This document shows, one piece after another, positions 112 to 14,860 of a stretch of DNA of 40,488 bases. The stretch covers positions 1 to 40,488 of the forward strand of contig JAUSPN010000009.1 in NCBI GenBank assembly GCA_030656555.1. Reading direction: 5' to 3'. Positions within the stretch are counted from its first letter, which is position 1. The number at the start of each line of letters is the position of its first letter. Under the pieces are notes generated by a model, which worked only from the letters and a program-made list of their open reading frames with translations, was not told the DNA's origin and did no database searches. This stretch comes from Candidatus Desulfaltia sp. Lineage in GTDB: Bacteria; Desulfobacterota; Desulfobacteria; Desulfobacterales; ETH-SRB1. The translations under genes and the position numbers were made by a program.

Positions 112-1342
112 CGATGCCGGAACTTTTGAACGTTACCAATGCATTAAGAATTAAGTTTAAAAATACCTGCTTTAATTGCTGGCCATCACCGCGGGTTCTT
201 GGTAGGTCGGGCTGAATTTGAGTTTCTATTTTTGCTCCGGAAACTTTTACCTGATTGAGTGCCAGCTTAATAGTATCGTTAACCAGCGCTCCAAGATCAA
301 GAGGTTCAGAAATAGATTCACTTTCTCTTGCAAAATCCAGAAGATTGCGAACTATACTCCTGGATCTGTCGGCTTCATTAATAAGATCATTGACCATTTC
401 AAGTAGTTCATCTTCTGACAAGTCTTTATAGTCCTCAAGCATCGTATGTGCTGTGAGCATTATGTTGTTAAGGGGGTTGTTTAATTCGTGAGCAACTCCG
501 GCTGTCAGAGTTCCGACTGCCCTAAGTTTATGTGATTCCACCATCGCAGCTTCGTGTGATTTAAGCTGCTCAAGCATACGATTAATAGCCACCTCCACTG
601 TCGTAAACTCATCACGGTATTTACGAATTGGTTTAATGGGTGAAAAATCTCCTGTTGCTATTCTATGAGTGCATTCAACTAGATATTTAAGCGGTTTTAT
701 CAATCTTTGCACAAGAAAACGTGCAACGAATAATCCTATCAACAAAACAACTACAAGACTGTAAATGGGTATTCTCTGGATAAGGTGGAGCATTGCATTC
801 ATGGAATCCTGCTCCTTATCAACAAGAGCAGCCGCTACCTTAACCATTTCAGCCCCATATTTTCTTAAGGAATTCTCAATTTTGCTCTTTTTTGCACTAC
901 TATCAATCCCGTTTTTCTCCAAAACCATAAGTTCCTGCAACAGGCTCCGGTATCTATCAAGATGCACAACAATAGTTTCTGTCTGTTCTGCTGATAAAAC
1001 AGTTACTATTTTCTGCAAGTTCTGTGATAAAATGGATTTTGCATTACTAGCGTTTTGAACCGCATTTTCGAGATTTGTGCCATACAAAAAGTAATTTTTT
1101 TCCGATCTCCTTGCCTGTTCAATTTCAAAGAGGTATCTTTCAGAGGCTTGAACAAAGTGCAGTTTTTTCTGTATCCGGTTTATGGCTATAACTGAACCTA
1201 CAATAATTGCCATCGAAAATAAGGAGAAAAAAATGAACACCAGAGATATATGCAAACGAAAGCTAAATTGGGGTCGTTCAAGCAACCCATTGTCAGCAGT
1301 AGTCGAAACAAGCTTTTTTTGAAATATGTTTTTTTTATACAT
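83..1342 (-). CDS. Sensor histidine kinase, C-terminally truncated
   Basis: Membrane two-component sensor kinase that would autophosphorylate on His and pass phosphate to a response regulator. Visible in order: a hydrophobic segment near residues 30-53, an extracytoplasmic helical region, a second membrane segment near 193-213, a HAMP linker, then HisKA with the H-box HELNNPL (His285). The N-box of the ATPase domain begins (QQLKQVFLNLILNAL), but homology stops there and about 17 unrelated residues run to a stop. The G1, F and G2 boxes that bind ATP are therefore missing, and the protein should be unable to autophosphorylate. The break lies at base 136, at one end of a 6-bp inverted repeat. 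The next gene, a receiver-only regulator, is the likely partner. I read the gene as broken by insertion or rearrangement. Confidence 0.85.
   Translation of the reverse strand: MYKKNIFQKKLVSTTADNGLLERPQFSFRLHISLVFIFFSLFSMAIIVGSVIAINRIQKKLHFVQASERYLFEIEQARRSEKNYFLYGTNLENAVQNASNAKSILSQNLQKIVTVLSAEQTETIVVHLDRYRSLLQELMVLEKNGIDSSAKKSKIENSLRKYGAEMVKVAAALVDKEQDSMNAMLHLIQRIPIYSLVVVLLIGLFVARFLVQRLIKPLKYLVECTHRIATGDFSPIKPIRKYRDEFTTVEVAINRMLEQLKSHEAAMVESHKLRAVGTLTAGVAHELNNPLNNIMLTAHTMLEDYKDLSEDELLEMVNDLINEADRSRSIVRNLLDFARESESISEPLDLGALVNDTIKLALNQVKVSGAKIETQIQPDLPRTRGDGQQLKQVFLNLILNALVTFKSSGIVTKPLKSQC
108..136. repeat. Small inverted repeat at the histidine kinase break point
   Basis: GTAACG (108-113) and CGTTAC (131-136) form a dyad separated by 17 bases. 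Its outer edge coincides with the last base before kinase homology resumes at 137. It may be the end of an inserted element, or only a chance hairpin. Nothing else identifies the element. Confidence 0.4.
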
Positions 1343-1460: not shown

Positions 1461-1862
1461 TTATGCTGCTGCTACAATTTCTCTTTTATAACCAAGGGAA
1501 TCAGCTGCTTTTGCAATTACAGCAAGGAAATCCTTAGGCCTGAATGGCTTGGCTATAATATCAAAAGCGCCTTTGTCCATTGCTTCACGAGCCAGAGCTA
1601 CCGTCGCATACCCTGTAATAATAATAACTTTAGTTTTGTCTGATTTTTTTCGTACCTCTTCCAGAACCTGAATTCCGTTCACATCAGCCATCATTATATC
1701 AGTAACAACAACATCAAACTCCTTTTCATTGATCCTGTTTAGAGCTTTTTGGGGATCTTCAAACACTTCTACATTACAACCAGCTTTTTTAATTGCAGGT
1801 CCCAACCTGTTTCCGACTATAGCTTCATCATCCAGTAACAGGATCTCTAATTTTTCTTTCAT
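1461..1862 (-). CDS. Receiver-only response regulator (CheY-like)
   Basis: Single-domain receiver that accepts phosphate from a histidine kinase. The acidic pair (DDE), the phospho-acceptor Asp in VVTDIMM, the switch Thr in IIITGYA and the Lys in IAKPF are all present, so the active site looks complete. There is no DNA-binding or enzymatic output domain. The start used is the second ATG (1862), because GGGGGGT lies 6 bases before it. An in-frame ATG at 1877 would add five residues (MGGKK) that consist of this ribosome-binding site. It lies about 120 bases downstream of nothing else on this strand but upstream of the truncated kinase, its likely cognate sensor. It probably signals by protein-protein contact or as a phosphorelay intermediate. 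Confidence 0.9.
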   Translation of the reverse strand: MKEKLEILLLDDEAIVGNRLGPAIKKAGCNVEVFEDPQKALNRINEKEFDVVVTDIMMADVNGIQVLEEVRKKSDKTKVIIITGYATVALAREAMDKGAFDIIAKPFRPKDFLAVIAKAADSLGYKREIVAAA

Positions 1863-1934
1863 TTTTTTACCCCCCATATGTGTTAAAATAGATTATTTAT
1901 GCTTTTTACGCTATAAACAAGATATTAGAACAGA

Positions 1935-2765
1935 TTACTGCCCATGCGCAACCTTTGTAAATAAATCATAATCTATAAAAACTTCGATGTGTTTGACCCC
2001 TTCGATTCTCATGACCTTTTGTTTCATTTCTAATACTTTATCATGTGCCTTTTTCTTTATTGCTTTGGTATATGTATATATGGTTCCTTCATCGGATTTT
2101 ACCTGCATTTTTGAATCTATATCAGCCAGAGTCGCCCGGACGCGACATGACATTGCAACATTTTTCATGCATCTTAATGAATATGTCATGGGCTGAAATT
2201 TCTTGTGTTTTACGGTACTAATAATGGTCTCCAGAGCATCTTCCACATCATCATCCTTCATATGCCCTATGTTTATTACAAGATCATATAAGCTCGAATT
2301 TTTGATGTCTATATCGTAAACAGCTGCAGCCCACTTCGCCTGCTCCTCATCTTCCTTTTCAATCACTTTACGGGCCTTATCATAAGATAGATTATCCGGC
2401 TTCATTCTGTTTTTTATCCTGTCCTCCAAGTTAGCAATAATCTGGACATTGAGGACATGAGGAACCTCCTGGATAAGTGGAAGTCCGACGACACCATAAT
2501 ATACTATATTATTTTTTAACAAATACTCTGCGATCAAAGTCTCAATAAATATAATATATTCGGGTTTAGTCTTGGAAAACATGCCAATGCCTGATGGTGC
2601 TTCTTTAAGAGCTCGAACAAGCTTTGATTCAGGAACACCGAATTCCTTAGAAACAAGTGATAAAATATTTTTACTATCTACATACTCGTAATCCAATCTT
2701 TTGGCGGCACTTTTAGCTATTTGCCTTCCGATGTAGGAACCTGCGGTAATAGTTATAATAGACAC
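1935..2765 (-). CDS. Cytidylate-kinase-like family protein with C-terminal BON-like region
   Basis: The first 190 or so residues resemble the cytidylate-kinase-like P-loop family: an N-terminal strand followed by a glycine-rich loop (TAGSYIGRQIAKSAA), then VDSKNIL and a helical lid region. The loop lacks the classical GKS/T, so kinase activity is uncertain. The last 85 or so residues (KSDEGTIYTYTKAIKKK to IEVFIDYDL) look like a BON-type or stress-adaptor fold. The start is GTG with a GGGGG ribosome-binding site about 5 bases upstream. The gene sits downstream of the SLC13 permease and stress protein on the same strand. Members of this family often sit in stress or signalling clusters, and the substrate is unknown. 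Function is inferred from fold resemblance only. Confidence 0.7.
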   Translation of the reverse strand: MSIITITAGSYIGRQIAKSAAKRLDYEYVDSKNILSLVSKEFGVPESKLVRALKEAPSGIGMFSKTKPEYIIFIETLIAEYLLKNNIVYYGVVGLPLIQEVPHVLNVQIIANLEDRIKNRMKPDNLSYDKARKVIEKEDEEQAKWAAAVYDIDIKNSSLYDLVINIGHMKDDDVEDALETIISTVKHKKFQPMTYSLRCMKNVAMSCRVRATLADIDSKMQVKSDEGTIYTYTKAIKKKAHDKVLEMKQKVMRIEGVKHIEVFIDYDLFTKVAHGQ

Positions 2766-2824: not shown

Positions 2825-4642
2825 TTAAACTCCGTAAAATAAATAAAGCATACCGATTAATACTACTATAAATAATACTGTCATAATTCCGCCGGCCTTT
2901 ATATAATCTATACTTCTATATCTGCCCGGCCCCATATAAAGCGCATTAACCTGATGTGTCGGCAGCATAAACGAATTTGAAGTCGCCAGGCCTACCACAA
3001 GTGCCGCCATCCTGGGATCTGTGCCTGCAGCTACAGCCATATTAACCACAAGCGGCACAAGAAGTACTGTAGCGCCCACATTTGAAATAACGAGAGTAAA
3101 AAAAGTGGAAAGCACTGCGATAGCTGTCAACAGTACAACAGGAGAAACATCGCCTATTAAATTAAGAATAGTATGAGCAATCCACGCCGCCGTACCTGTT
3201 TTTTCGGTTGCAATCCCCAAAGGAATAAGTCCTGCCAGGAGGAAAATCGTCCGCCAGTCAACAGACTTGTATGCCTCGTCTATAGTCAGCACCCGGCATA
3301 CAATCATTCCAAAGGCTCCGGTCATAAGACATACTGACAACTGAATTTTGAATATAATTATCATTACAAGCGCTGCTGCAAGCCAAAAACCGGCTATTAA
3401 AGATTTCTGCGGTTTAAGAACTTCACTTACCGGAGTTGTAAAAATAAAATTGTGGCTCTCCTGTAAAATATTAAACCTTTCCCAGGTACCTTGAAGTAGT
3501 ATTGAATCACCTGAACGCAATTTAAAATCTGAAAGCCCGGAATAAAAAGTCTTGTCTGAACGATAAATAGCCAACGGGTTTACCTGAAACTGTTCCCAGA
3601 AATGTGCCTTTCTCAGGGTTTTGCCGATTAACTCGGAACGAGGTGCAACAACGGCCTCAATAGTTCCGGATATTGCTGGAGACATTTCATTCTGAAATAA
3701 TTCCAAAGAGTCTTTAATCTGCATTCCAAGTTCTTTGGCCATTTTCTCAATATTTTCCTGCAGTCCGTAAACAACCATATTAACATCAGACCTTATCTCT
3801 GTGTCTGAATCAACGGAAAGCAGCTTAAAACCATCCCTTCCGGCAATCGCAACAACATTTACCAAATATTTTTCCCTTAAATCTTTAACCGTTAAGGGAT
3901 CTCTGAAATCGGTAAAATCACCAGGCACTTTTAATTCAAATGGATCACCAATATTTTCATAAGAACTCGCAAGTCCCTGAATAGATTCATCAGAAGAACC
4001 GCTGTCTCCGGTTTTTTCTTTGGGAAGCACAAACCGTCCGAAAAAAATAAAGAATGCGATTCCAGACCCGACCAACGCCAAACCAATAGGAGTCACATCA
4101 AACAGGCCGAATGGCTTAAGATTAAAGGGAGCTATCAAATCGTTTAAAAGAATCAACGGACTGCAACCCACCAGAGTTATAGTACCACCAAGAATTGCGC
4201 AAAAACCTATAGGCATAAGCATCAGGGAAAGCGATATATTCATTGATTTGCTTACACGCCTGATAGCAGGCAGAAAAAGAGCAGCAGCACCGATGTTCTG
4301 CATAAAACTCGAAATTCCAGCTACAGTTGCGCCCATAGCTATAACAACCCGAGACGCGCTGTTACCGGCTATTTTCATAACAGGCTTAACCAATCTGTTT
4401 ATAAGGCCGGTTTTGTCAAGACCGGCACCTATAATAATAACTGCAATAATGGAAATAACTGCATTACTGCTAAAACCGGAGAACGCTTCTTTGGGCGTAA
4501 CCAAATGAAGCAAAGGTAGTGTAACAGTCATTAGTATAGCTACCATATCAACGCGAATCCATTCGACAATAAAAAGGAACACCGCTACTCCAATCATTAT
4601 CATGACCAAGATCATTTCTGTTGTTAACACATTCGCTTCCAT
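2825..4642 (-). CDS. SLC13/DASS-family permease with two RCK_C (TrkA-C) domains
   Basis: Inner-membrane anion permease of 605 residues. About five or six membrane segments span residues 8-215. A soluble insert of roughly 225-395 contains two RCK_C-like domains (VNVVAIAGRDGFKLLSVDSDTEI and APRSELIGKTLRKAHF). A second membrane block spans 405-605. The repeated Ser/Gly-rich transport loops (AFSGFSSNAVI and GLATSNSFMLPTHQVNALYMG) are typical of the family, which moves sulfate or di/tricarboxylates, often with Na+. Bacterial members with RCK_C inserts are commonly annotated as sulfate or generic SLC13 permeases, and the substrate cannot be read from sequence. GGAG lies upstream of the ATG. The preceding stress-protein gene ends 31 bases before, so the two are probably cotranscribed from the sigma-54-type promoter near 5350. 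Confidence 0.92.
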   Translation of the reverse strand: MEANVLTTEMILVMIMIGVAVFLFIVEWIRVDMVAILMTVTLPLLHLVTPKEAFSGFSSNAVISIIAVIIIGAGLDKTGLINRLVKPVMKIAGNSASRVVIAMGATVAGISSFMQNIGAAALFLPAIRRVSKSMNISLSLMLMPIGFCAILGGTITLVGCSPLILLNDLIAPFNLKPFGLFDVTPIGLALVGSGIAFFIFFGRFVLPKEKTGDSGSSDESIQGLASSYENIGDPFELKVPGDFTDFRDPLTVKDLREKYLVNVVAIAGRDGFKLLSVDSDTEIRSDVNMVVYGLQENIEKMAKELGMQIKDSLELFQNEMSPAISGTIEAVVAPRSELIGKTLRKAHFWEQFQVNPLAIYRSDKTFYSGLSDFKLRSGDSILLQGTWERFNILQESHNFIFTTPVSEVLKPQKSLIAGFWLAAALVMIIIFKIQLSVCLMTGAFGMIVCRVLTIDEAYKSVDWRTIFLLAGLIPLGIATEKTGTAAWIAHTILNLIGDVSPVVLLTAIAVLSTFFTLVISNVGATVLLVPLVVNMAVAAGTDPRMAALVVGLATSNSFMLPTHQVNALYMGPGRYRSIDYIKAGGIMTVLFIVVLIGMLYLFYGV

Positions 4643-4656
4643 AAAAAATCGATCTC

Positions 4657-4686
4657 CTTTTTAGATTCGCTCGCTATTGCGGTTCA
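4657..4686. repeat. Collapsed third copy of the double-hairpin repeat
   Basis: This stretch matches the 3' part of the composite repeat seen at 6231-6289, but hairpin 2 is missing. TTTTTAGATTCGCTCGC is joined directly to TATTGCGGTTCA. In the full copy hairpin 2 is bracketed by CGCTCG direct repeats, so a slippage deletion explains the collapse. The copy lies over the 3' end of the stress-protein gene and provides its last codons (Glu-Pro-Gln-stop). Confidence 0.6.
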
Positions 4687-5123
4687 GATTTCTTTGCTTT
4701 TTCCTTTACAGTTAATACACGGCATGACGTCATATGAACCAGCAAAGATATATTTTTTTTGATTGCCTGATAATGCTCATCCTGTTTATCAGGAACGGCA
4801 ATCATTATCTCTGCTATATTCAAATCCCGCACGAACTCGCAGACCTTTTCTATATATTCACCACGGCACTCGTGCTGCTCAATGTTGATTCCTTCCATAG
4901 TACTCTTGTCTATAAGCAGCTCTACTCTTTCCCTGATTTTTCTTTCCCTGTCCTTTTCTTGAAGAACGTCTGTCAAAAAATAATCTGACTTTGCTCTATC
5001 ATTTTTTGATAAGAACAGGAAAATTGGCTTAGAGCCGCTTCTCTTGGCGAATTCAACAGCATAACGAGCTGCATTCAGCGATATCTCAGAAAAATTATCC
5101 AAAGGTACGAGTATCTTGTTCAA
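4674..5123 (-). CDS. Universal stress protein (UspA family)
   Basis: Cytoplasmic protein of 149 residues with the UspA fold. It opens with the strand ILVPLDNFSEISLNAARYAVEFAK, and a second conserved block IAEIMIAVPDKQ appears near the C-terminus. The usual ATP-binding G-2x-G-9x-G-S/T signature is not evident, so it may belong to the non-nucleotide-binding class. The start is TTG at 5123. It is preceded immediately by an in-frame TAG, so no upstream start is possible, and GGGGGATGAAG provides a ribosome-binding site. The last codons and the stop fall inside a remnant of the dispersed double-hairpin repeat. It is followed 31 bases later by the SLC13 permease, a common Usp-transporter pairing. 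A sigma-54-type promoter with upstream dyad (5345-5438) points at this gene. Confidence 0.88.
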   Translation of the reverse strand: MNKILVPLDNFSEISLNAARYAVEFAKRSGSKPIFLFLSKNDRAKSDYFLTDVLQEKDRERKIRERVELLIDKSTMEGINIEQHECRGEYIEKVCEFVRDLNIAEIMIAVPDKQDEHYQAIKKNISLLVHMTSCRVLTVKEKAKKSEPQ

Positions 5124-5200: not shown

Positions 5201-5316
5201 GAAGCTCCCCGCCGCAAGCAGCGGGGAGCTTCGACCGTAAGGAAGTTTGCTATTTTTGTATTCGCTCACTAACCCCGCCGCAAGCAGCGGGGAATGCGCT
5301 CGCTTTTGCGGTTCAA
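5201..5316. repeat. Composite double-hairpin repeat, copy 1
   Basis: Hairpin 1 is 5201-5232, with 12-bp perfect arms GAAGCTCCCCGC / GCGGGGAGCTTC around CGCAAGCA. A linker with GACCGTAAGGAAGTT follows. Hairpin 2 is 5273-5292 (CCCCGC / GCGGGG), and then CGCTCG and TTGCGGTTCAA. The same order of blocks recurs at 6173-6290. The arms differ between copies but pairing is kept, which suggests selection on structure or a REP-like mobile palindrome. Confidence 0.8.
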
Positions 5317-5344
5317 TAAAATACAAACTTAATAAAAACTATAA

Positions 5345-5359
5345 TCAAGAAATATGCCA
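5345..5359 (-). promoter_or_regulatory. Sigma-54-type promoter upstream of the stress-protein gene
   Basis: Read on the minus strand the sequence is TGGCATATTTCTTGA, with -24 GG at 5358-5357 and a -12 element TTGA instead of the usual TTGC, separated by 10 bases. It is almost identical to the plus-strand element at 6391-6405. The stress-protein start codon lies about 220 bases downstream, with the double-hairpin repeat between them. A dyad enhancer sits 73 bases upstream of the GG. Confidence 0.55.
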
Positions 5360-5421
5360 AATAATTATATTCAATAATTACGAATTGTTATATTTTGAAG
5401 ATCAGGAAAGAGCCGTGGGTA

Positions 5422-5440
5422 GCGTTTCAATATGAAACGC
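5422..5440. promoter_or_regulatory. Palindromic enhancer site GCGTTTCA-ATA-TGAAACGC
   Basis: A perfect 8-3-8 dyad whose core is GTTTC-N5-GAAAC (5424-5438). It is centred at 5431, 73 bases upstream of the -24 GG of the minus-strand sigma-54-type promoter. Related dyads occur at 6098-6131 and 6313-6327. This placement is what is known for NtrC-type enhancer binding proteins; the actual protein is not identified here. Confidence 0.6.
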
Positions 5441-5503
5441 GTAGAACATGTCGCAGATATTTGTCTATATTAAAGCCTAATAAGAGTAGATGGTTGGAAA
5501 TAC

Positions 5504-5542
5504 GTTTCATTTTGGGACTATGTTTCATTTTGGAATTGAAAC
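5504..5542. promoter_or_regulatory. Degenerate tandem copies of the GTTTC-N5-GAAAC site
   Basis: GTTTCATTTTGGGAC (5504-5518) and GTTTCATTTTGGAAT (5522-5536) keep the left half-site but not the right one. A TTGAAAC half-site follows at 5536-5542. They lie between the second receiver gene and the perfect dyad at 5422-5440, and may be weak or decayed enhancer sites. Confidence 0.35.
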
Positions 5543-5574
5543 TAAAAGGCAGATAAAAGAAAGTGGATTTATAT

Positions 5575-6003
5575 TCATTCTGGATCGTTCGAGGTCATTT
5601 CCGGTATATTGACAGCATCTATACCTTTTTCATTAAATAATCTTTTCTCACAAGCCAACCGCAACTTTTCAATAAGTTCATCACGATCAAAAGGCTTCAT
5701 AAGATAGTCAAATGCCCCCAGCCTCATGCCTTCAATGGCAACCCGAACCGAGGCATGGCCGGTAAGCATTATTACTTCTGTAATCGGCTTGATTTTCTTT
5801 ATTTCTCTGAGGGTTTCTATGCCATCCATTCCCGGCATTAAAACATCCAGCAATACTGTAATAAAATCCTGCTGTTTAATCTTCTCCAAGGCTTCACTGC
5901 CATTCATTGCCGTACTTATATCAAAACCCTTTTTTATCAAGAATCTTGAAAGGTACTTAAGCATTATCTCCTCATCATCAACAAGTAATATCTTGTGCTT
6001 CAT
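5575..6003 (-). CDS. Receiver-only response regulator
   Basis: Receiver domain with an intact acidic pair (Asp9, Asp10), phospho-acceptor Asp53 (VLLDVLMPGMDG), Thr81 and Lys103 (LMKPF). It resembles the receiver of NtrC-family regulators, but the protein stops after about 20 further residues and has no AAA+ or DNA-binding domain. It therefore cannot itself bind the GTTTC dyads that surround its gene. The length (142) is typical of single-domain regulators. A sigma-70-like promoter (TTGACA, 17 bases, TTGATA) lies 38 bases upstream, and AAGGAG precedes the ATG by 7 bases. It may act in a phosphorelay with an unlinked kinase. Confidence 0.9.
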   Translation of the reverse strand: MKHKILLVDDEEIMLKYLSRFLIKKGFDISTAMNGSEALEKIKQQDFITVLLDVLMPGMDGIETLREIKKIKPITEVIMLTGHASVRVAIEGMRLGAFDYLMKPFDRDELIEKLRLACEKRLFNEKGIDAVNIPEMTSNDPE

Positions 6004-6040
6004 TGTCCACTCCTTGTTATAAATTCATTTAGAACACGGC

Positions 6041-6069
6041 TATCAATCAAAAAATTTTGATGCTGTCAA
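6041..6069 (-). promoter_or_regulatory. Sigma-70-like promoter of the receiver gene
   Basis: On the minus strand TTGACA (6069-6064) is followed after 17 bases by TTGATA (6046-6041). It is 38 bases from the ATG of the receiver gene. Two GTTTC-type dyads (6098-6131) lie 29-67 bases upstream of the -35, where an activator or repressor could act. Confidence 0.45.
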
Positions 6070-6097
6070 TAGGGGGCAGTTCCAAACAACCATAAAT

Positions 6098-6131
6098 ATT
6101 TCAATATGAAACGTTGGTTTCATATTGAAAC
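6098..6131. promoter_or_regulatory. Tandem enhancer dyads
   Basis: ATTTCAATATGAAAC (6098-6112) and GTTTCATATTGAAAC (6117-6131) are centred 19 bases apart, nearly two helical turns, as expected for cooperative binding by a dimeric regulator. They lie between the divergently transcribed receiver gene and the PEP-binding gene, about 270-290 bases from the sigma-54-type promoter of the latter. Confidence 0.55.
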
Positions 6132-6172
6132 TTTAATCAAAAAACCTGACTGTTTTGGCCATTAGAATGATT

Positions 6173-6290
6173 GAAGATTCCCTGTAGCAAGCTACAGGGA
6201 ATCTTCGACCGTAAGGAAGTTAGCCATTTTTAGATTCGCTCGCTAACCCCGCAGCAAGCTACGGGGAATACGCTCGTTATTGCGGTTCAA
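6173..6290. repeat. Composite double-hairpin repeat, copy 2
   Basis: Hairpin 1 (6173-6206) has perfect 16-bp arms, GAAGATTCCCTGTAGC and its complement around AA. The linker GACCGTAAGGAAGTTAGCC is shared with copy 1. Hairpin 2 (6247-6266) is CCCCGCAGC/GCTACGGGG with one mismatch, and then come CGCTCGTTATTGCGGTTCAA. Arm sequences differ from copy 1 at paired positions. Confidence 0.8.
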
Positions 6291-6312
6291 AATATTACCG
6301 CTAAGGAATGAG

Positions 6313-6327
6313 GTTTCGTTTTGAAAC
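6313..6327. promoter_or_regulatory. Enhancer dyad GTTTC-GTTTT-GAAAC
   Basis: Centred at 6320, 72 bases upstream of the -24 GG (6392) of the plus-strand sigma-54-type promoter. The spacing is practically the same as in the minus-strand pair at 5422-5440 and 5345-5359. Confidence 0.6.
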
Positions 6328-6390
6328 ATCTTTATTGCCTCCCAAGATACCGCATAAATATAACTATTTGTAATTTAAGGAAATCCGATC

Positions 6391-6405
6391 TGGCACATTT
6401 TTTGA
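6391..6405 (+). promoter_or_regulatory. Sigma-54-type promoter of the PEP/pyruvate-binding gene
   Basis: TGGCACATTTTTTGA: a consensus -24 TGGCAC and -12 TTGA (consensus TTGC), with the GG and the -12 G in correct register. It lies about 60 bases before the ATG at 6468. Bases 6391-6408 match the minus-strand element upstream of the stress-protein gene in 16 of 18 positions. Confidence 0.6.
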
Positions 6406-6467
6406 TTACAATTCTATGCAATATACATGCTAAAAATTAATCTACTAAATTGAAGTCCGGAGTAAAG

Positions 6468-9113
6468 ATGTTTGGATTAAGGCGATCAATAAAAAAAATC
6501 TTTTCAGGTAAAAAAGGGGAAAGCCCAGCCTCCGAAAAAACGCCTGAAGATATCATCCGTTCCCTATTCAAAACAAAGTACTGGAATTTTAAAAGCCTTC
6601 TAAGCATTAATAACACAATCCTTGAGATCATGTCGGAAATGGAATTGGCACTGCAGGGAAACAAAAAATTCAGCATGGAATTCATTCGTGCGAACTGCAT
6701 ATCCATCTCGGTAAATATATATAAACTAATTGAAAAAATAAACGATATTTCCGGCCATCGTTATGAAACGCTCTATCATGCTTTTGCTGATATTCAATAT
6801 AAAATAAATCAAACACTGGAAGATAGGGGGAAATCAATTGAGGGTGAGCTGGTACTGTCAATTGAAGAAATAAATAAAGACAGCTCAAAACACACCGGCA
6901 GCAAAATGGCTAATTTGGGCGAAATTATGAACATGACAGATCTTAGTGTTCCGCATGGTTTTGTTGTTACTGCCACTGCATATAATCTGTTTTTGGATCA
7001 TAGTGCCCTTCAAAAAAAGATTAACCAGCAGCTCCAATCTGTTGATATTGAAGACATAAAAATGCTGGAAATAGCCGGTTCAAATATACAAAAACTTATC
7101 ATGGAGTCTCCCGTTCCTCCAGAACTTGAAAGAGCAATACTTGAAGAATACAGACGCCTGGAAGAAAAAACAGAAAAAGGTGTAAAAGTTTCTATGCGTA
7201 GCAGCGCCTTAGGTGAAGATAGTCAGAACTCCTCTTTCGCAGGCCAATACCACACAGAACTGAATGTCAGTTATAAAACACTGATTAACTCATATAAAAT
7301 AATTCTTGCCAGCAAGTATTCTCCTCGGGCTATTACATATCGCTTTAACAAAGGCTTTCGTGACGAAGATATTGTTATGTGCGTCGGATGCATGACCATG
7401 GTTGAATCTGTTTCCAGCGGAGTTATGTATTCAAAAGACCCGGAAGATATTCACAATGACCTGATATTCATAAATGCAGTGCCTGGGTTGGGAAAATCAG
7501 TGGTTGAGGGCAGCATATCGCCTGATTTGTTTGTAACCTCCAAGGGAAATACGATTCGACTCCTTAAAAAAGAAATTCATGTTAAAAATCAGAAAATTTT
7601 ATCGTTTTCAAATAAAGAATTACATTCTATTGAATTAAATAGAGAAGAACAGGATAAACCGGCAATCACAGATTATCAATGCCTCTCTCTATCAAAGATA
7701 GCCGTTATCCTTGAAAATCACTTCAGAATGCCTCAAGATATTGAATGGGCTATAGAAAAAGATGGTTCAGTCAAAATACTGCAAAGCCGTCCCTTGAAAC
7801 AGTTAGATAAAGAAGATAGTAATATTAAAGACACCTTTAATATAAGAGTTCAAAACAAAATAATACTAAATGGAGGTATTGCAGCCAGCCCTGGTGTAGC
7901 CTGCGGTCCTGCATTTATACTCAACTCAGCAGATGAAATAAAACAATTTCCTAAAGGGGCTGTTTTAGTAGCAAAAAACTCTTTACCCCAGTGGGCTACA
8001 CTATTAAACAGAGCTGTTGCAGTTGTAACCGACCGCGGAGGGATTTCAGGACATCTTGCCACAGTTTCAAGGGAATTCAGTATCCCGGCACTTTTTGATA
8101 CTCTCGTAGCTACCGACAGAATTAAAAATGACGACATAATCACAGTTGATACCTATGCGAGGAAAGTTTATGAGGGAAAAGCAGAAGCATTATTAAGAGA
8201 GTCTTCTGCACGAGGCATCAGTACAATTAAAGGAAGCCCTGTTTATATAACGCTTAAAAGGATACTAAAGCATATTGCCCCGCTAAATCTTATTGATCCA
8301 AAAGGTGATAATTTTACGCCTGATGGCTGCCACACACATCATGATATTACCCGATTTTGCCATGAAAAGGCTGTAAAAGAAATGTTTGATTTCGGCAAAA
8401 ACAACAGGAAAATCAAGGCTGGGAAAAGACTGATTATAAATGATGTGCCAACACAGTGGTCGATTGTTGACCTGGGCGATGGCTTAAAAGAATCAAAGGG
8501 AAAAGATACTGTAAGACTCGACAATATAGCCTCATCCCCCATGTTAGCCCTCTGGGAGGGAATGACTGCGGTAGAATGGGATGGCCCCCCTCAGATAGAT
8601 ACCAGGGGGTTTATGTCCATAATGGTTGAATCTACCATGAATAGTGATTTATACGCATCAAGTCGGTCCAGTTATACGCAAAACAATTGCGCTATTATTT
8701 CAAAAAACTTTTGCAATCTCAGTTGCAGATTTGGCTATCATTATTCGATTGTACAGACCTTTGTCAGCGATATGCCCAGAGAAAATTACATAAGGTTTTG
8801 TTTTAAAGGTGGTGCGGCAGATCATGACAGAAAATTCCGCAGGATGAAGCTTATAGAAGAAATCTTAACCAGCCATGATTTTCAGGTCGAAATCAATGAA
8901 GATTATATGAATGCCAATATCGAAGGATATAATAAATTTTTTACAATAAACTGTGTTAAGATACTTGGATATCTTACAATGCATACAAGACAACTTGATA
9001 TGATAATGGGCAACCCTGCCAGAGCAGCTTATTACAAGGAAAAATTGCTGAAAGACATCAGCTTCTGGTTCCCACGACCTGCTCAATCGGAAGTTGCTCA
9101 ATCGGAAGTTTGA
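6468..9113 (+). CDS. PEP/pyruvate-binding phosphotransferase-like protein with novel C-terminal domain
   Basis: Large cytoplasmic protein of 881 residues. Residues 1-135 or so are an unassigned helical region. About 145-465 form the PPDK N-terminal ATP-grasp domain (GSKMANLGEI, VSMRSSALGED, then LQSRPLK at its end). About 475-585 form the swivelling phosphohistidine domain (TDRGGISGHLATVSRE, with His529 in the catalytic position). The C-terminal 290 residues are not the PEP-binding TIM barrel of PEP synthase or PPDK. They carry a conserved-looking motif, CHTHHDITRFCHEKAVKEMF, and no domain I can name. Domain order recalls rifampin phosphotransferase and other atypical PPDK-N/PEP-utilizer proteins, so the phosphate acceptor is unknown. 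The start is ATG 6468, 5 bases after GGAG; a TTG at 6450 is in frame but lacks a site. The promoter looks sigma-54 dependent. Confidence 0.82.
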   Translation: MFGLRRSIKKIFSGKKGESPASEKTPEDIIRSLFKTKYWNFKSLLSINNTILEIMSEMELALQGNKKFSMEFIRANCISISVNIYKLIEKINDISGHRYETLYHAFADIQYKINQTLEDRGKSIEGELVLSIEEINKDSSKHTGSKMANLGEIMNMTDLSVPHGFVVTATAYNLFLDHSALQKKINQQLQSVDIEDIKMLEIAGSNIQKLIMESPVPPELERAILEEYRRLEEKTEKGVKVSMRSSALGEDSQNSSFAGQYHTELNVSYKTLINSYKIILASKYSPRAITYRFNKGFRDEDIVMCVGCMTMVESVSSGVMYSKDPEDIHNDLIFINAVPGLGKSVVEGSISPDLFVTSKGNTIRLLKKEIHVKNQKILSFSNKELHSIELNREEQDKPAITDYQCLSLSKIAVILENHFRMPQDIEWAIEKDGSVKILQSRPLKQLDKEDSNIKDTFNIRVQNKIILNGGIAASPGVACGPAFILNSADEIKQFPKGAVLVAKNSLPQWATLLNRAVAVVTDRGGISGHLATVSREFSIPALFDTLVATDRIKNDDIITVDTYARKVYEGKAEALLRESSARGISTIKGSPVYITLKRILKHIAPLNLIDPKGDNFTPDGCHTHHDITRFCHEKAVKEMFDFGKNNRKIKAGKRLIINDVPTQWSIVDLGDGLKESKGKDTVRLDNIASSPMLALWEGMTAVEWDGPPQIDTRGFMSIMVESTMNSDLYASSRSSYTQNNCAIISKNFCNLSCRFGYHYSIVQTFVSDMPRENYIRFCFKGGAADHDRKFRRMKLIEEILTSHDFQVEINEDYMNANIEGYNKFFTINCVKILGYLTMHTRQLDMIMGNPARAAYYKEKLLKDISFWFPRPAQSEVAQSEV

Positions 9114-11887: not shown

Positions 11888-12301
11888 CTATTCGCGTTTG
11901 TTTCCTTTTAAAACACCACTTGCAAGGGAAATGCTCTTCTTCCCAAAAGCTTCCAGATTTTGCCCAAGGTTACTAAGCTCGGTGTTTTTTCGAGTGTTAA
12001 CCGCTTTTAATAAAATCGGGAGGTTAACACCAGACAAAACCTCTACCTTTCCTTCTTCAAGAAATGAATAGCTCAGATTGGAAGGGGTTCCACCAAACAT
12101 GTCGGTTAAAACAAGCACGCCTTCTTTGGTTTTTACCCTGTTTATTGCTTGGGCAATTTTCAACCGAAGCATATCTGCCTTTTCATTCAAATCTATGGAA
12201 ACCGACTCCATAGCTTCCGGCTTGCCGCCAAGAATGAATTCAGCAGCATCAATCAATGAATCCCCAAGCTGTCTGTGCGTAACAATAACTATGCCAATCA
12301 T
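11888..12301 (-). CDS. PTS EIIA component, mannose/fructose family
   Basis: A 137-residue phosphocarrier domain of the mannose-type EIIA fold. His9 (VIVTHRQLGD) is the expected phosphorylation site, and LTDMFGGTPSN is a family signature. No EIIB, EIIC or EIID genes are nearby, so a regulatory role in the nitrogen-type PTS is more likely than sugar uptake. It starts 39 bases after ptsN. The rapZ gene often found between these two in related genomes is absent. Confidence 0.9.
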   Translation of the reverse strand: MIGIVIVTHRQLGDSLIDAAEFILGGKPEAMESVSIDLNEKADMLRLKIAQAINRVKTKEGVLVLTDMFGGTPSNLSYSFLEEGKVEVLSGVNLPILLKAVNTRKNTELSNLGQNLEAFGKKSISLASGVLKGNKRE

Positions 12302-12340
12302 AAAACTCCTTATTAATGGTGATGAATCCGTAAAAAATGT

Positions 12341-12799
12341 TTAAAATCTATCATCTTCCTCCTTTATGATGGAAAGGATTTCCTCACTGCTGGCAGCCTC
12401 CATAAGTTTTTTCTTAAAAAGATCGTTTTTAAGAATTCTGGAAATTCTGGCAAGCATTTTCAAATGAAGGCCCGTAGAATTTTCCGGTGTAACTAGAAGA
12501 AAAAAGATGTGGGTAGGCTTGCCGTCCATAGATTCAAAGTCAACCCCTTTTCGGCTAAGGCCAAAACCAAGCACCAGTGATTTCAGGCTCTTTAGTTTGC
12601 CGTGCGGGATGCCGATTCCTCCGCCTATGCCGGTACTGCCTAATTGTTCCCTCTCCAGTAGTACTCGCATCACTTCTTCATTCTTTACGCCTGCAATACG
12701 GGCAGCAGGCATGACAAGTTCTTCAAGCACCCCCTTCTTGTCATCTGATTTAAGCTCAATAATAATTGCTTCTTTATCTAAAACTTCAAGAATCTTCAT
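12341..12799 (-). CDS. ptsN: PTS-Ntr EIIA component PtsN
   Basis: Regulatory EIIA of the fructose/nitrogen family, 152 residues. His66 lies in the conserved GIGGGIGIPHGKLKSL motif, followed by PTHIFFLLVTPENSTGLHLKMLARI. It lies downstream of rpoN and hpf in the order typical of proteobacteria, where PtsN phosphorylation responds to nitrogen and potassium status. No transport partner is encoded nearby. Confidence 0.93.
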   Translation of the reverse strand: MKILEVLDKEAIIIELKSDDKKGVLEELVMPAARIAGVKNEEVMRVLLEREQLGSTGIGGGIGIPHGKLKSLKSLVLGFGLSRKGVDFESMDGKPTHIFFLLVTPENSTGLHLKMLARISRILKNDLFKKKLMEAASSEEILSIIKEEDDRF

Positions 12800-12886
12800 T
12801 TCATATTCACCTATGTTTGTGGACAGTGATCAGGTGGACAACAGGGCATTAACCACACACCGCACTGCTGCCCCCCCACCAACACA

Positions 12887-13420
12887 CTAACTACTGGGCT
12901 GGATCAAGCCGTAGTGGCCATCCTTACGGCTGTAAAGAACATTAACCTGATTAGTCCTGGCGTTTGCAAACACAAGAAAATCACTGTTTATAAGATCCAT
13001 CTGCATTATAGCTTCTTCTATATCCATTGGCTTATATTCAATATTTTTAATCTTGACATCTCTTTCAACATTTACATCGCGATGAGCAATGTCTTCAACA
13101 AAGGCGCTTTTTGCTCTGTCTTTTGAACCGCTTCTGTATCCTCTGTTTTTTTGCTTGTTTTTCTTTATCTGTTTTTCAAGCTTATCTAAAACCATATCAA
13201 TAGCTGAATACATGTCGTCTGTTTCTTCTTTGCCGTTTACATTTAGTCTGTCGCCAACAATATTGATTTCCGCTATATGACGAAACTTTTCAACCGAAAG
13301 GACAACCTTTGCTTCTGCCGGATTGTACAAGTATTTATCAAACCGGTTAAGTTTTTCTTGAACATATGATTTTAAATTTTCAGACGAATCCAAATTTTTA
13401 AAAGTTACTGATGTCTGCAT
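12887..13420 (-). CDS. hpf: Ribosome hibernation-promoting factor, long form
   Basis: Binds the 30S subunit in stationary phase and promotes 100S ribosome dimers. The N-terminal S30AE domain (about 1-100) is followed by a basic linker and a C-terminal dimerisation domain (KPMDIEEAIMQMDLINSDFLVFANA). At 177 residues it is the long form that acts alone. It starts 12 bases after rpoN, the classic neighbour, so it is likely cotranscribed with it. Confidence 0.94.
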   Translation of the reverse strand: MQTSVTFKNLDSSENLKSYVQEKLNRFDKYLYNPAEAKVVLSVEKFRHIAEINIVGDRLNVNGKEETDDMYSAIDMVLDKLEKQIKKNKQKNRGYRSGSKDRAKSAFVEDIAHRDVNVERDVKIKNIEYKPMDIEEAIMQMDLINSDFLVFANARTNQVNVLYSRKDGHYGLIQPSS

Positions 13421-13432
13421 GTAAAAGCCTCC

Positions 13433-14860
13433 CTAAAATTGTTTACGTTTGCTTGACGGCAGCAGTTTTAGCCTTTCCCGATACTTGGCTACCGTCCTTC
13501 TGGCAATATCAATATTCAGCTGCTTCAAAAGTTTTGAGATTTTATCATCGCTGTAAGGTTTTTTGGGATTTTCACCAGCAATAATCTGCTTTATCTTTTC
13601 CTGAACGCTGATAGAGGCCATTGCCTCACCATCTATTCTATTAATAGAACTATTAAAAAAATATTTCAATTCAAAAATACCCTGTGGAGTATGAGCATAC
13701 TTGTTTGTTGTAACCCTGCTGATTGTTGATTCGTGCATGCCTATATCCTGAGCCACATCCTTTAGCACCATCGGCTTTAAGTATGCTATTCCCTTTTCGA
13801 AAAAGTCTTGCTGGAATTTCAATATGCTTTCCATAACCCTGTAGATAGTTTTCTGGCGCTGATAAATGCTTTTGATTAACCATGTTGCTGAACGCATTTT
13901 TTCCTGTACATAGTTCTTTGCAATGCCGGAGATCTTTTCTCCACTTTTTATTGCATTTTTATAAAAAGAACTGACTCGGAGCTTTGGAATTCCGTCATCA
14001 TTTATCATTATCACAAACTCATTTTCCGATTTATAAACAAAAATGTCAGGAATAATATATTGAGGCTCTTCATCGGAAAATTGCCGTCCGGGTCTTGGCT
14101 CCAGCGCTTTAATAACATTTACAGCAGAAAGAATCTCTTCAATGCTTACTTTTAATGCTCTTGCTACGGCTTTATAATTTTTATTTTCAAGATGCTTGAG
14201 ATGGTTACTGATAATATCGGTTACTACCGTATTATCAAGCCCAAAATGCCTTGCCTGAATGAGGAGACATTCGCCGAGATCTCTGGCACATACTCCGATC
14301 GGGTCAAAAGTTTGTATTAATAACAAAATTTTATTTACTTTTTGGGTTGTTGAGTTGCTTAAAGCAACAAGCTCTTCGACAGAAACCTTTAGATACCCGT
14401 CTTTATCCAGGTTTCCGATAATTAAGTCTCCAATCCTTTGTTGCTCCTTTGTCTGAACTATCATAAGCAGCTGCCAGAGAAGGTGTTCATTTAAAGATTC
14501 TTTACGTGCTACAAAGGATTCAAAATTTGGCGTATCCTTCTTTTCGGTTTCAAAATGGATTCTGCCGGCTGAATTGTATTCATCAAGATAATTGCTCCAG
14601 TCAATGTTATCATTAATTTTTTCTTCTATTGCAACTTCTTTGTTCGGTTTTTCAGTCACCGCAGCTTTAGATTGCTCCGCAGACGGTTCTTCTGAAGCAA
14701 CATCCATCACCTCTTCCAGCGCTGGATTTTCCTCCAGTTCCTTCTGGATAGTATCCATAAGCTCCAGACGGGATAGCTGCAGGAGCTTAATAGCTATCTG
14801 AAGCTGCGGTGTCATGATAAGCTGCTGAGACAATTTTAGCTGTTGTCGTAATTCAAGCAT
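13433..14860 (-). CDS. rpoN: RNA polymerase sigma-54 factor
   Basis: Alternative sigma factor that recognises -24/-12 promoters and needs AAA+ activators. The N-terminal activator-interacting region is Gln/Leu-rich (RQQLKLSQQLIMTPQLQIAIK). A variable acidic region II (about 55-110) and the core-binding domain follow, then a helix-turn-helix (KDVAQDIGMHESTISRVT) and the RpoN box ARRTVAKYRE near residue 453. Length (475) is full. It lies between lptB and hpf with 12-base gaps. The two sigma-54-type promoters at 5345 and 6391 in this window are candidate targets. Confidence 0.97.
   Translation of the reverse strand: MLELRQQLKLSQQLIMTPQLQIAIKLLQLSRLELMDTIQKELEENPALEEVMDVASEEPSAEQSKAAVTEKPNKEVAIEEKINDNIDWSNYLDEYNSAGRIHFETEKKDTPNFESFVARKESLNEHLLWQLLMIVQTKEQQRIGDLIIGNLDKDGYLKVSVEELVALSNSTTQKVNKILLLIQTFDPIGVCARDLGECLLIQARHFGLDNTVVTDIISNHLKHLENKNYKAVARALKVSIEEILSAVNVIKALEPRPGRQFSDEEPQYIIPDIFVYKSENEFVIMINDDGIPKLRVSSFYKNAIKSGEKISGIAKNYVQEKMRSATWLIKSIYQRQKTIYRVMESILKFQQDFFEKGIAYLKPMVLKDVAQDIGMHESTISRVTTNKYAHTPQGIFELKYFFNSSINRIDGEAMASISVQEKIKQIIAGENPKKPYSDDKISKLLKQLNIDIARRTVAKYRERLKLLPSSKRKQF

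Follow-up and report, generated by a model that had tools for sequence, protein, structure and literature searches.

The locus raises the question of whether two divergent promoters, each of which reads as an activator dyad, an AT-rich block and a sigma-54-like element, answer to one regulator, and if so to which. It lies in a marine relative of the sulfate reducers, within a stretch of 40,488 nucleotides that was analyzed as a whole and is called the window below. The reading set out here, which we regard as very probable on sequence grounds, is a two-promoter sigma-54 regulon run by an NtrC-type activator, EBP9, encoded at the end of one target operon. The genes concerned are the following.

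4674-5123, minus strand: universal stress protein (USP; Pfam Usp), first gene of the operon
2825-4642, minus strand: SLC13/DASS-like anion transporter with TrkA_C domains
1935-2765, minus strand: cytidylate-kinase-like protein (Pfam Cytidylate_kin2)
1461-1877, minus strand: stand-alone receiver protein RR1
138-1342, minus strand: N-terminal part of a histidine kinase (HK), HAMP-HisKA, cut by an insertion sequence
5575-6003, minus strand: stand-alone receiver protein RR2, between both promoters
6468-9113, plus strand: PEP-synthase-like protein (PPDK_N and mobile His domain)

The DASS score of the transporter is under the cut-off (103.5 against 198.6). The PEP-synthase-like protein has no Pfam PEP-binding C-terminal domain, and about 300 of its C-terminal residues are without a Pfam match; in relatives, paralogues of it at 36-50% identity recur beside genes for EBPs, HKs and receivers. 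Two direct copies of a REP-like element with CCCCGC-NGCAAGCNGC-GGGG hairpins (5201-5324 and 6173-6298) are also present, 84% alike over a 102-nt repeat (5223-5324 and 6197-6298). The 5' leader of the USP operon contains one copy, the other is between the distal and proximal dyads of the PEP-synthase-like promoter, and shorter versions occur in the related genome G004.

In a canonical sigma-54 promoter, 10 bases separate the GG at -24 from the GC at -12. The two candidate elements are these.

5342-5359, minus strand: TGGCATATTTCTTGATTA, sigma-54-like, for the USP-SLC13 operon; transcription expected to begin near 5333; conserved in G002, G004, G005, G007, G009, G012 and G015
6391-6408, plus strand: TGGCACATTTTTTGATTA, sigma-54-like, for the PEP-synthase-like gene; transcription expected to begin near 6417; conserved in G004, G007, G008, G012 and G015

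Both were re-located in the window where a preliminary description of this DNA had placed them (5359-5342 on the minus strand and 6391-6408 on the plus strand), and a pattern search of the window for TGGCAYNNNNNTTGA with zero mismatches returned these two occurrences only. Each has the GG at -24 and the correct spacing, and its -12 reads GA, not GC. The preliminary description had noted TTGA in place of TTGC and called it unusual; the substitution is indeed present at both sites, but it is common in the promoter family, and the last base of the -12 element varies in relatives between A, T and C.

Upstream of each element lie dyads that are predicted to bind the activator.

5424-5438, no strand: proximal activator dyad (predicted) of the USP promoter, GTTTCAATATGAAAC; centre 5431
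6313-6327, no strand: proximal activator dyad (predicted) of the PEP-synthase-like promoter, GTTTCGTTTTGAAAC; centre 6320
5504-5518, no strand: distal degenerate dyad GTTTCATTTTGGGAC, 80 bases past the proximal dyad; conserved in relatives
5522-5536, no strand: distal degenerate dyad GTTTCATTTTGGAAT, 98 bases past the proximal dyad; conserved in relatives
6098-6112, no strand: distal dyad ATTTCAATATGAAAC, one mismatch, in tandem with the next
6117-6131, no strand: distal dyad GTTTCATATTGAAAC, exact, in tandem with the preceding one

The centres of the proximal dyads are 73 and 72 bases, respectively, from the first -24 G, both distances as originally reported. In genome G015 the distal dyads on the PEP-synthase-like side are at distances of about 80 and 99 bases from the proximal one, and the corresponding pair of the window (6098/6117) is farther out because the repeat element sits between distal and proximal dyads. 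Dyad pairs 79-82 bases apart recur at other loci of EBP9-like activators (L132, L135, L137, L140 and L146). The possibility that the 6098/6117 pair serves RR2 was considered and rejected: where RR2 and the PEP-synthase-like gene are separated (G005 and G009), the dyads adjoin the latter.

The dyad is rare. GTTTCN5GAAAC has six matches in the 2.73-Mb genome, of which three fall in this interval and three in open frames of at least 312 aa, and TTTC-N5-GAAA followed at 40-90 bases by GGYAY-N5-TTG has four, two of them being these promoters and the other two (on contigs C61 and C63) lacking the outer G..C of the dyad. A promoter-module profile run over the whole genome gave E values of 1.3e-20 and 6.5e-20 for the two sites and 0.014 for the next, partial match; this profile was made from sequence only, from 23 modules that include the two sites, so its information lies in the lack of any third site. 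The genome scan for the dyad upstream of a sigma-54 element, which had been proposed beforehand, thus yields only these two full sites, and the initial judgment that such repetition is hard to explain by chance is borne out by the six dyads, the two full modules and the conserved spacing. Because the profile and pattern scans give nothing comparable beyond the two sites, the regulon in this genome most likely consists of two promoters.

A third element common to both modules was absent from the preliminary description, as were the distal dyads.

5376-5395, minus strand: AT-rich block AAATATAACAATTCGTAATT between dyad and -24, in an IHF-like position; 90% identical to 6356-6375
6356-6375, plus strand: AT-rich block AAATATAACTATTTGTAATT between dyad and -24, in an IHF-like position; 90% identical to 5376-5395

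The likeness of these 20-base blocks was taken from an ungapped alignment; a global alignment of the two promoters was uninformative against shuffles, which when gapped reach 0.72 identity. For the relation to IHF, a positional test replaced a best-hit test per promoter. Outside the window's family the block ends 18-20 bases before the -24 GG, and the IHF consensus YAANNNNYTGATW has a mean of 1.2 mismatches at this fixed position; at other offsets the median is 4.4. Within the family the block has about two or more mismatches to the consensus and was mostly no better than shuffles in the best-hit test, yet it is conserved while departing from the consensus, and "IHF-like" is therefore the apt word. 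Seven genes of the HU/IHF family are present in this genome.

At orthologous loci of the family, the module is kept at one or both promoters in G002, G004, G005, G007, G008, G009, G012 and G015. Conservation in the alignments is concentrated in the dyads, the AT-rich block at the center and the -24/-12 element, and the remaining intergenic DNA drifts. The original proposal of two sigma-54 promoters with matching enhancers gains comparative support in this way, from dyad, spacing and -24/-12 alike. In G005 and G009 the PEP-synthase-like gene is found elsewhere, with dyads and without a recognizable sigma-54 element.

Which protein would act at these sites? The preliminary description had predicted an NtrC-type activator encoded outside the window, and such a gene is found at the end of another contig.

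Contig C13, 136467-137846, minus strand: EBP9, NtrC-type activator, intact, following the ATPase part of HK

In relatives (L075, L148, L149 and L053) EBP9 is the last gene of a one-strand operon, USP-SLC13-cytidylate kinase-RR1-HK-EBP9, and it is contiguous with that operon in G004, G005, G007 and G009. The expectation that the gene of the activator would itself carry the dyad holds at the level of the operon, which starts at a dyad-bearing promoter and ends with EBP9. In the present genome the operon is split within HK. The window contig (C39) carries the gene up to HK position 1205, and the end of C13 carries it from position 1197 onward; the halves overlap by 9 bases, align to one HK gene, and the overlap is of the kind that an insertion sequence leaves. 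Positions 1-137 of the window are the end of an insertion sequence, overlooked at first, which splits the operon and ends the window; five identical copies of this end are present in the genome, and two (C39 and C40) coincide exactly with the start of a contig, as expected where repeats break assemblies. From the two HK halves and the gene order in relatives we infer that EBP9 adjoins the operon of the window across the split HK gene. C13 ends at 138332, beside the C-terminal part of HK, and this remnant also has a one-base frameshift, which may be an assembly error at the contig end. The insertion sequence and the frameshift may have broken both the kinase input and the read-through into EBP9 in this strain.

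The sequence of EBP9 itself retains GAFTGA, Walker A and the Fis-type helix, and the REC-AAA-Fis architecture was assigned by Pfam on its 93% identical orthologue in G004. It shares this architecture and GAFTGA with AtoC, NtrC and ZraR, but scores far below the NCBIfam equivalog cut-offs for all three (for AtoC, 420 against 714 bits), and these names are therefore not applicable. In a quick tree the EBP9 clade has a support of 100 (SH-aLRT), and its sole member from this genome is L009; EBP9 is thus alone among the EBPs of this genome in belonging to the dyad-associated clade.

The strongest competitor, although an unlikely one, is that a different regulator, either another EBP or a repressor, binds the dyads and that EBP9 is a mere neighbor; the genome encodes 17 further EBPs that might serve. 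Within this genome, however, the recognition helix PRTTLWR is confined to the EBP9 clade, being present in 18/18 aligned clade members and in 0/16 of the genome's other aligned EBPs. Family genomes without EBP9 are also without the module: a perfect match to its pattern occurs in nine of the ten that carry the operon, whole or in fragments, and in 0/7 without EBP9 (Fisher 4e-4, with relatedness ignored). In the tenth genome of the first group, G011, the operon tail is on a contig of 4.6 kb, which stops short of the promoter.

Across families, moreover, the dyad tracks the EBP9 clade even beside differing operons. The gap of 61-66 bases is kept across many families. In a pattern-only search of 389 genomes of the order, among loci outside the window's family, chosen by pattern and not by EBP, an EBP9-clade activator is nearby at 8/11 with this gap and at 0/19 with other gaps (p = 3e-5, an optimistic value as some loci are close relatives of each other). 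Among the profile matches from outside the training set are the same operon (G269, G205 and G234) and EBP9-clade neighbors (L220, L223, L227 and L228). EBP9 is therefore most likely the activator that works both promoters. The earlier prediction of a small regulon under one activator is supported from the comparative side by the two genome sites and the association of EBP9 with the dyad.

Loci of L012-like activators (L224, L233, L236 and L238) were set aside from the module matches, as their motif is different: they have direct repeats of GTTTCAT-type half sites together with the same AT-rich block. They are probably a separate regulon.

The likeness of the two promoters might also be a relic of promoter duplication and no sign of shared control. 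The 90% identity of the 20-base blocks in this genome would fit such an origin. So would genome G477 of another family, in which the profile found the same divergent pair outside the training set, with promoters (L274, 2489-3505) that are 88% identical over 99 bases, a likeness that suggests an origin by duplication or continued homogenization by gene conversion. As a rival to shared control, the relic is nevertheless quite improbable: the promoters of the window's family have diverged elsewhere, yet the dyad, the block and the -24/-12 element are kept separately in every species having them. Duplication may be the origin of the pair, with the sites kept by selection since. That the promoters owe their likeness to chance or to structural repeats with no regulatory role is scarcely credible, for in spite of the 102-nt repeats nearby and of TGGCAY-N5-TTGA alone, which with one mismatch is no commoner in the window than chance, the sites lie outside the repeats and are rare, regularly spaced and conserved as a footprint in relatives.

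For regulation by EBP9, then, the sites with their conservation and spacing, the operon, the domains of the activator and its association with the dyad are the evidence from sequence; binding by EBP9, phosphorylation, the action of IHF and autoregulation are the steps that we infer. In sigma-54 systems, phosphorylated activator dimers sit at dyads, DNA bending carries them to the polymerase, and the promoter is opened by ATP hydrolysis. Here, the histidine kinase encoded in the operon would phosphorylate EBP9, whose dimers would occupy the dyads of GTTTCA-N3-TGAAAC type that lie some 97 bases upstream of either start, as well as the farther dyads. IHF or a similar protein would bend the AT-rich block between dyad and -24, and the AAA+ ring of EBP9 would then remodel the sigma-54 polymerase at both divergent promoters. 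The predicted outputs are the PEP-synthase-like protein on one side and USP, SLC13, the cytidylate-kinase-like protein, RR1, HK and EBP9 on the other. Since one of the target operons ends with EBP9, the activator is predicted to feed back positively on its own operon, so that the two-promoter regulon is probably subject to positive autoregulation.

The type of switch is already known, and the particular switch seems undescribed; no description of the regulon was found in the texts of open-licence papers. The closest case is orp1/orp2 of D. vulgaris Hildenborough with its EBP DVU2106, in which divergent sigma-54 promoters likewise form a small dedicated regulon of one activator with palindromic sites, and in which IHF sites between palindrome and promoter are required (PMC3897727). 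The genes of the orp cluster are different, and DVU2106 is expressed from a sigma-70 promoter with negative feedback (PMC3897727), whereas at the present locus the activator belongs to the sigma-54 operon, positive feedback is predicted and a whole receiver gene lies between the promoters. D. vulgaris also belongs to another taxonomic order than the window organism. Its sigma-54 regulome comprises 36 regulons, with most EBPs controlling one to four operons; as at the present locus, EBP genes are often co-localized with their targets and small regulons are the rule (PMC4641369). The main text of that account contains neither the words searched for the gene set of the window nor the motif letters, its motifs being given in a figure and in supplements. 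In Desulfosarcina, clusters of DASS sulfate transporters occur with two-component systems, so that, as here, an SLC13/DASS-type transporter of Desulfobacteraceae stands beside a sensor kinase and response regulators; the regulators there are reported as WalR-type with CBS proteins (PMC11887813), whereas that of the present locus is an NtrC-type sigma-54 activator.

The regulon offers a complete and testable cis/trans pair (activator, recognition helix, dyad and spacing) for uncultured Desulfobacteraceae, whose regulation is little worked out, and it joins an SLC13-type transporter, a stress protein and a PEP-synthase-like enzyme in one switch. If the transporter carries sulfate, which is speculation, the switch would place the substrate of sulfate respiration under sigma-54 control. 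A wider and distinctly tentative proposal is that an undescribed sigma-54 circuit runs across sulfate-reducing Desulfobacterota and couples a transporter of SLC13 type, for an anion that may be sulfate, to a PEP-synthase-like enzyme; its geometry of activator, dyad, IHF and -24 would be conserved and used again by paralogous circuits, and selection would have kept its non-canonical -12 elements.

The gene for the sigma factor itself lies within the window.

13433-14860, minus strand: rpoN, sigma-54, with all three Pfam domains (Sigma54_AID/CBD/DBD)

In the span 11888-14860, which is 4-8 kb from the regulon, rpoN is followed by HPF-like, EIIA-Ntr-like and EIIA-Man-like frames, the latter three judged from sequence, and this order is the usual sigma-54 neighborhood.
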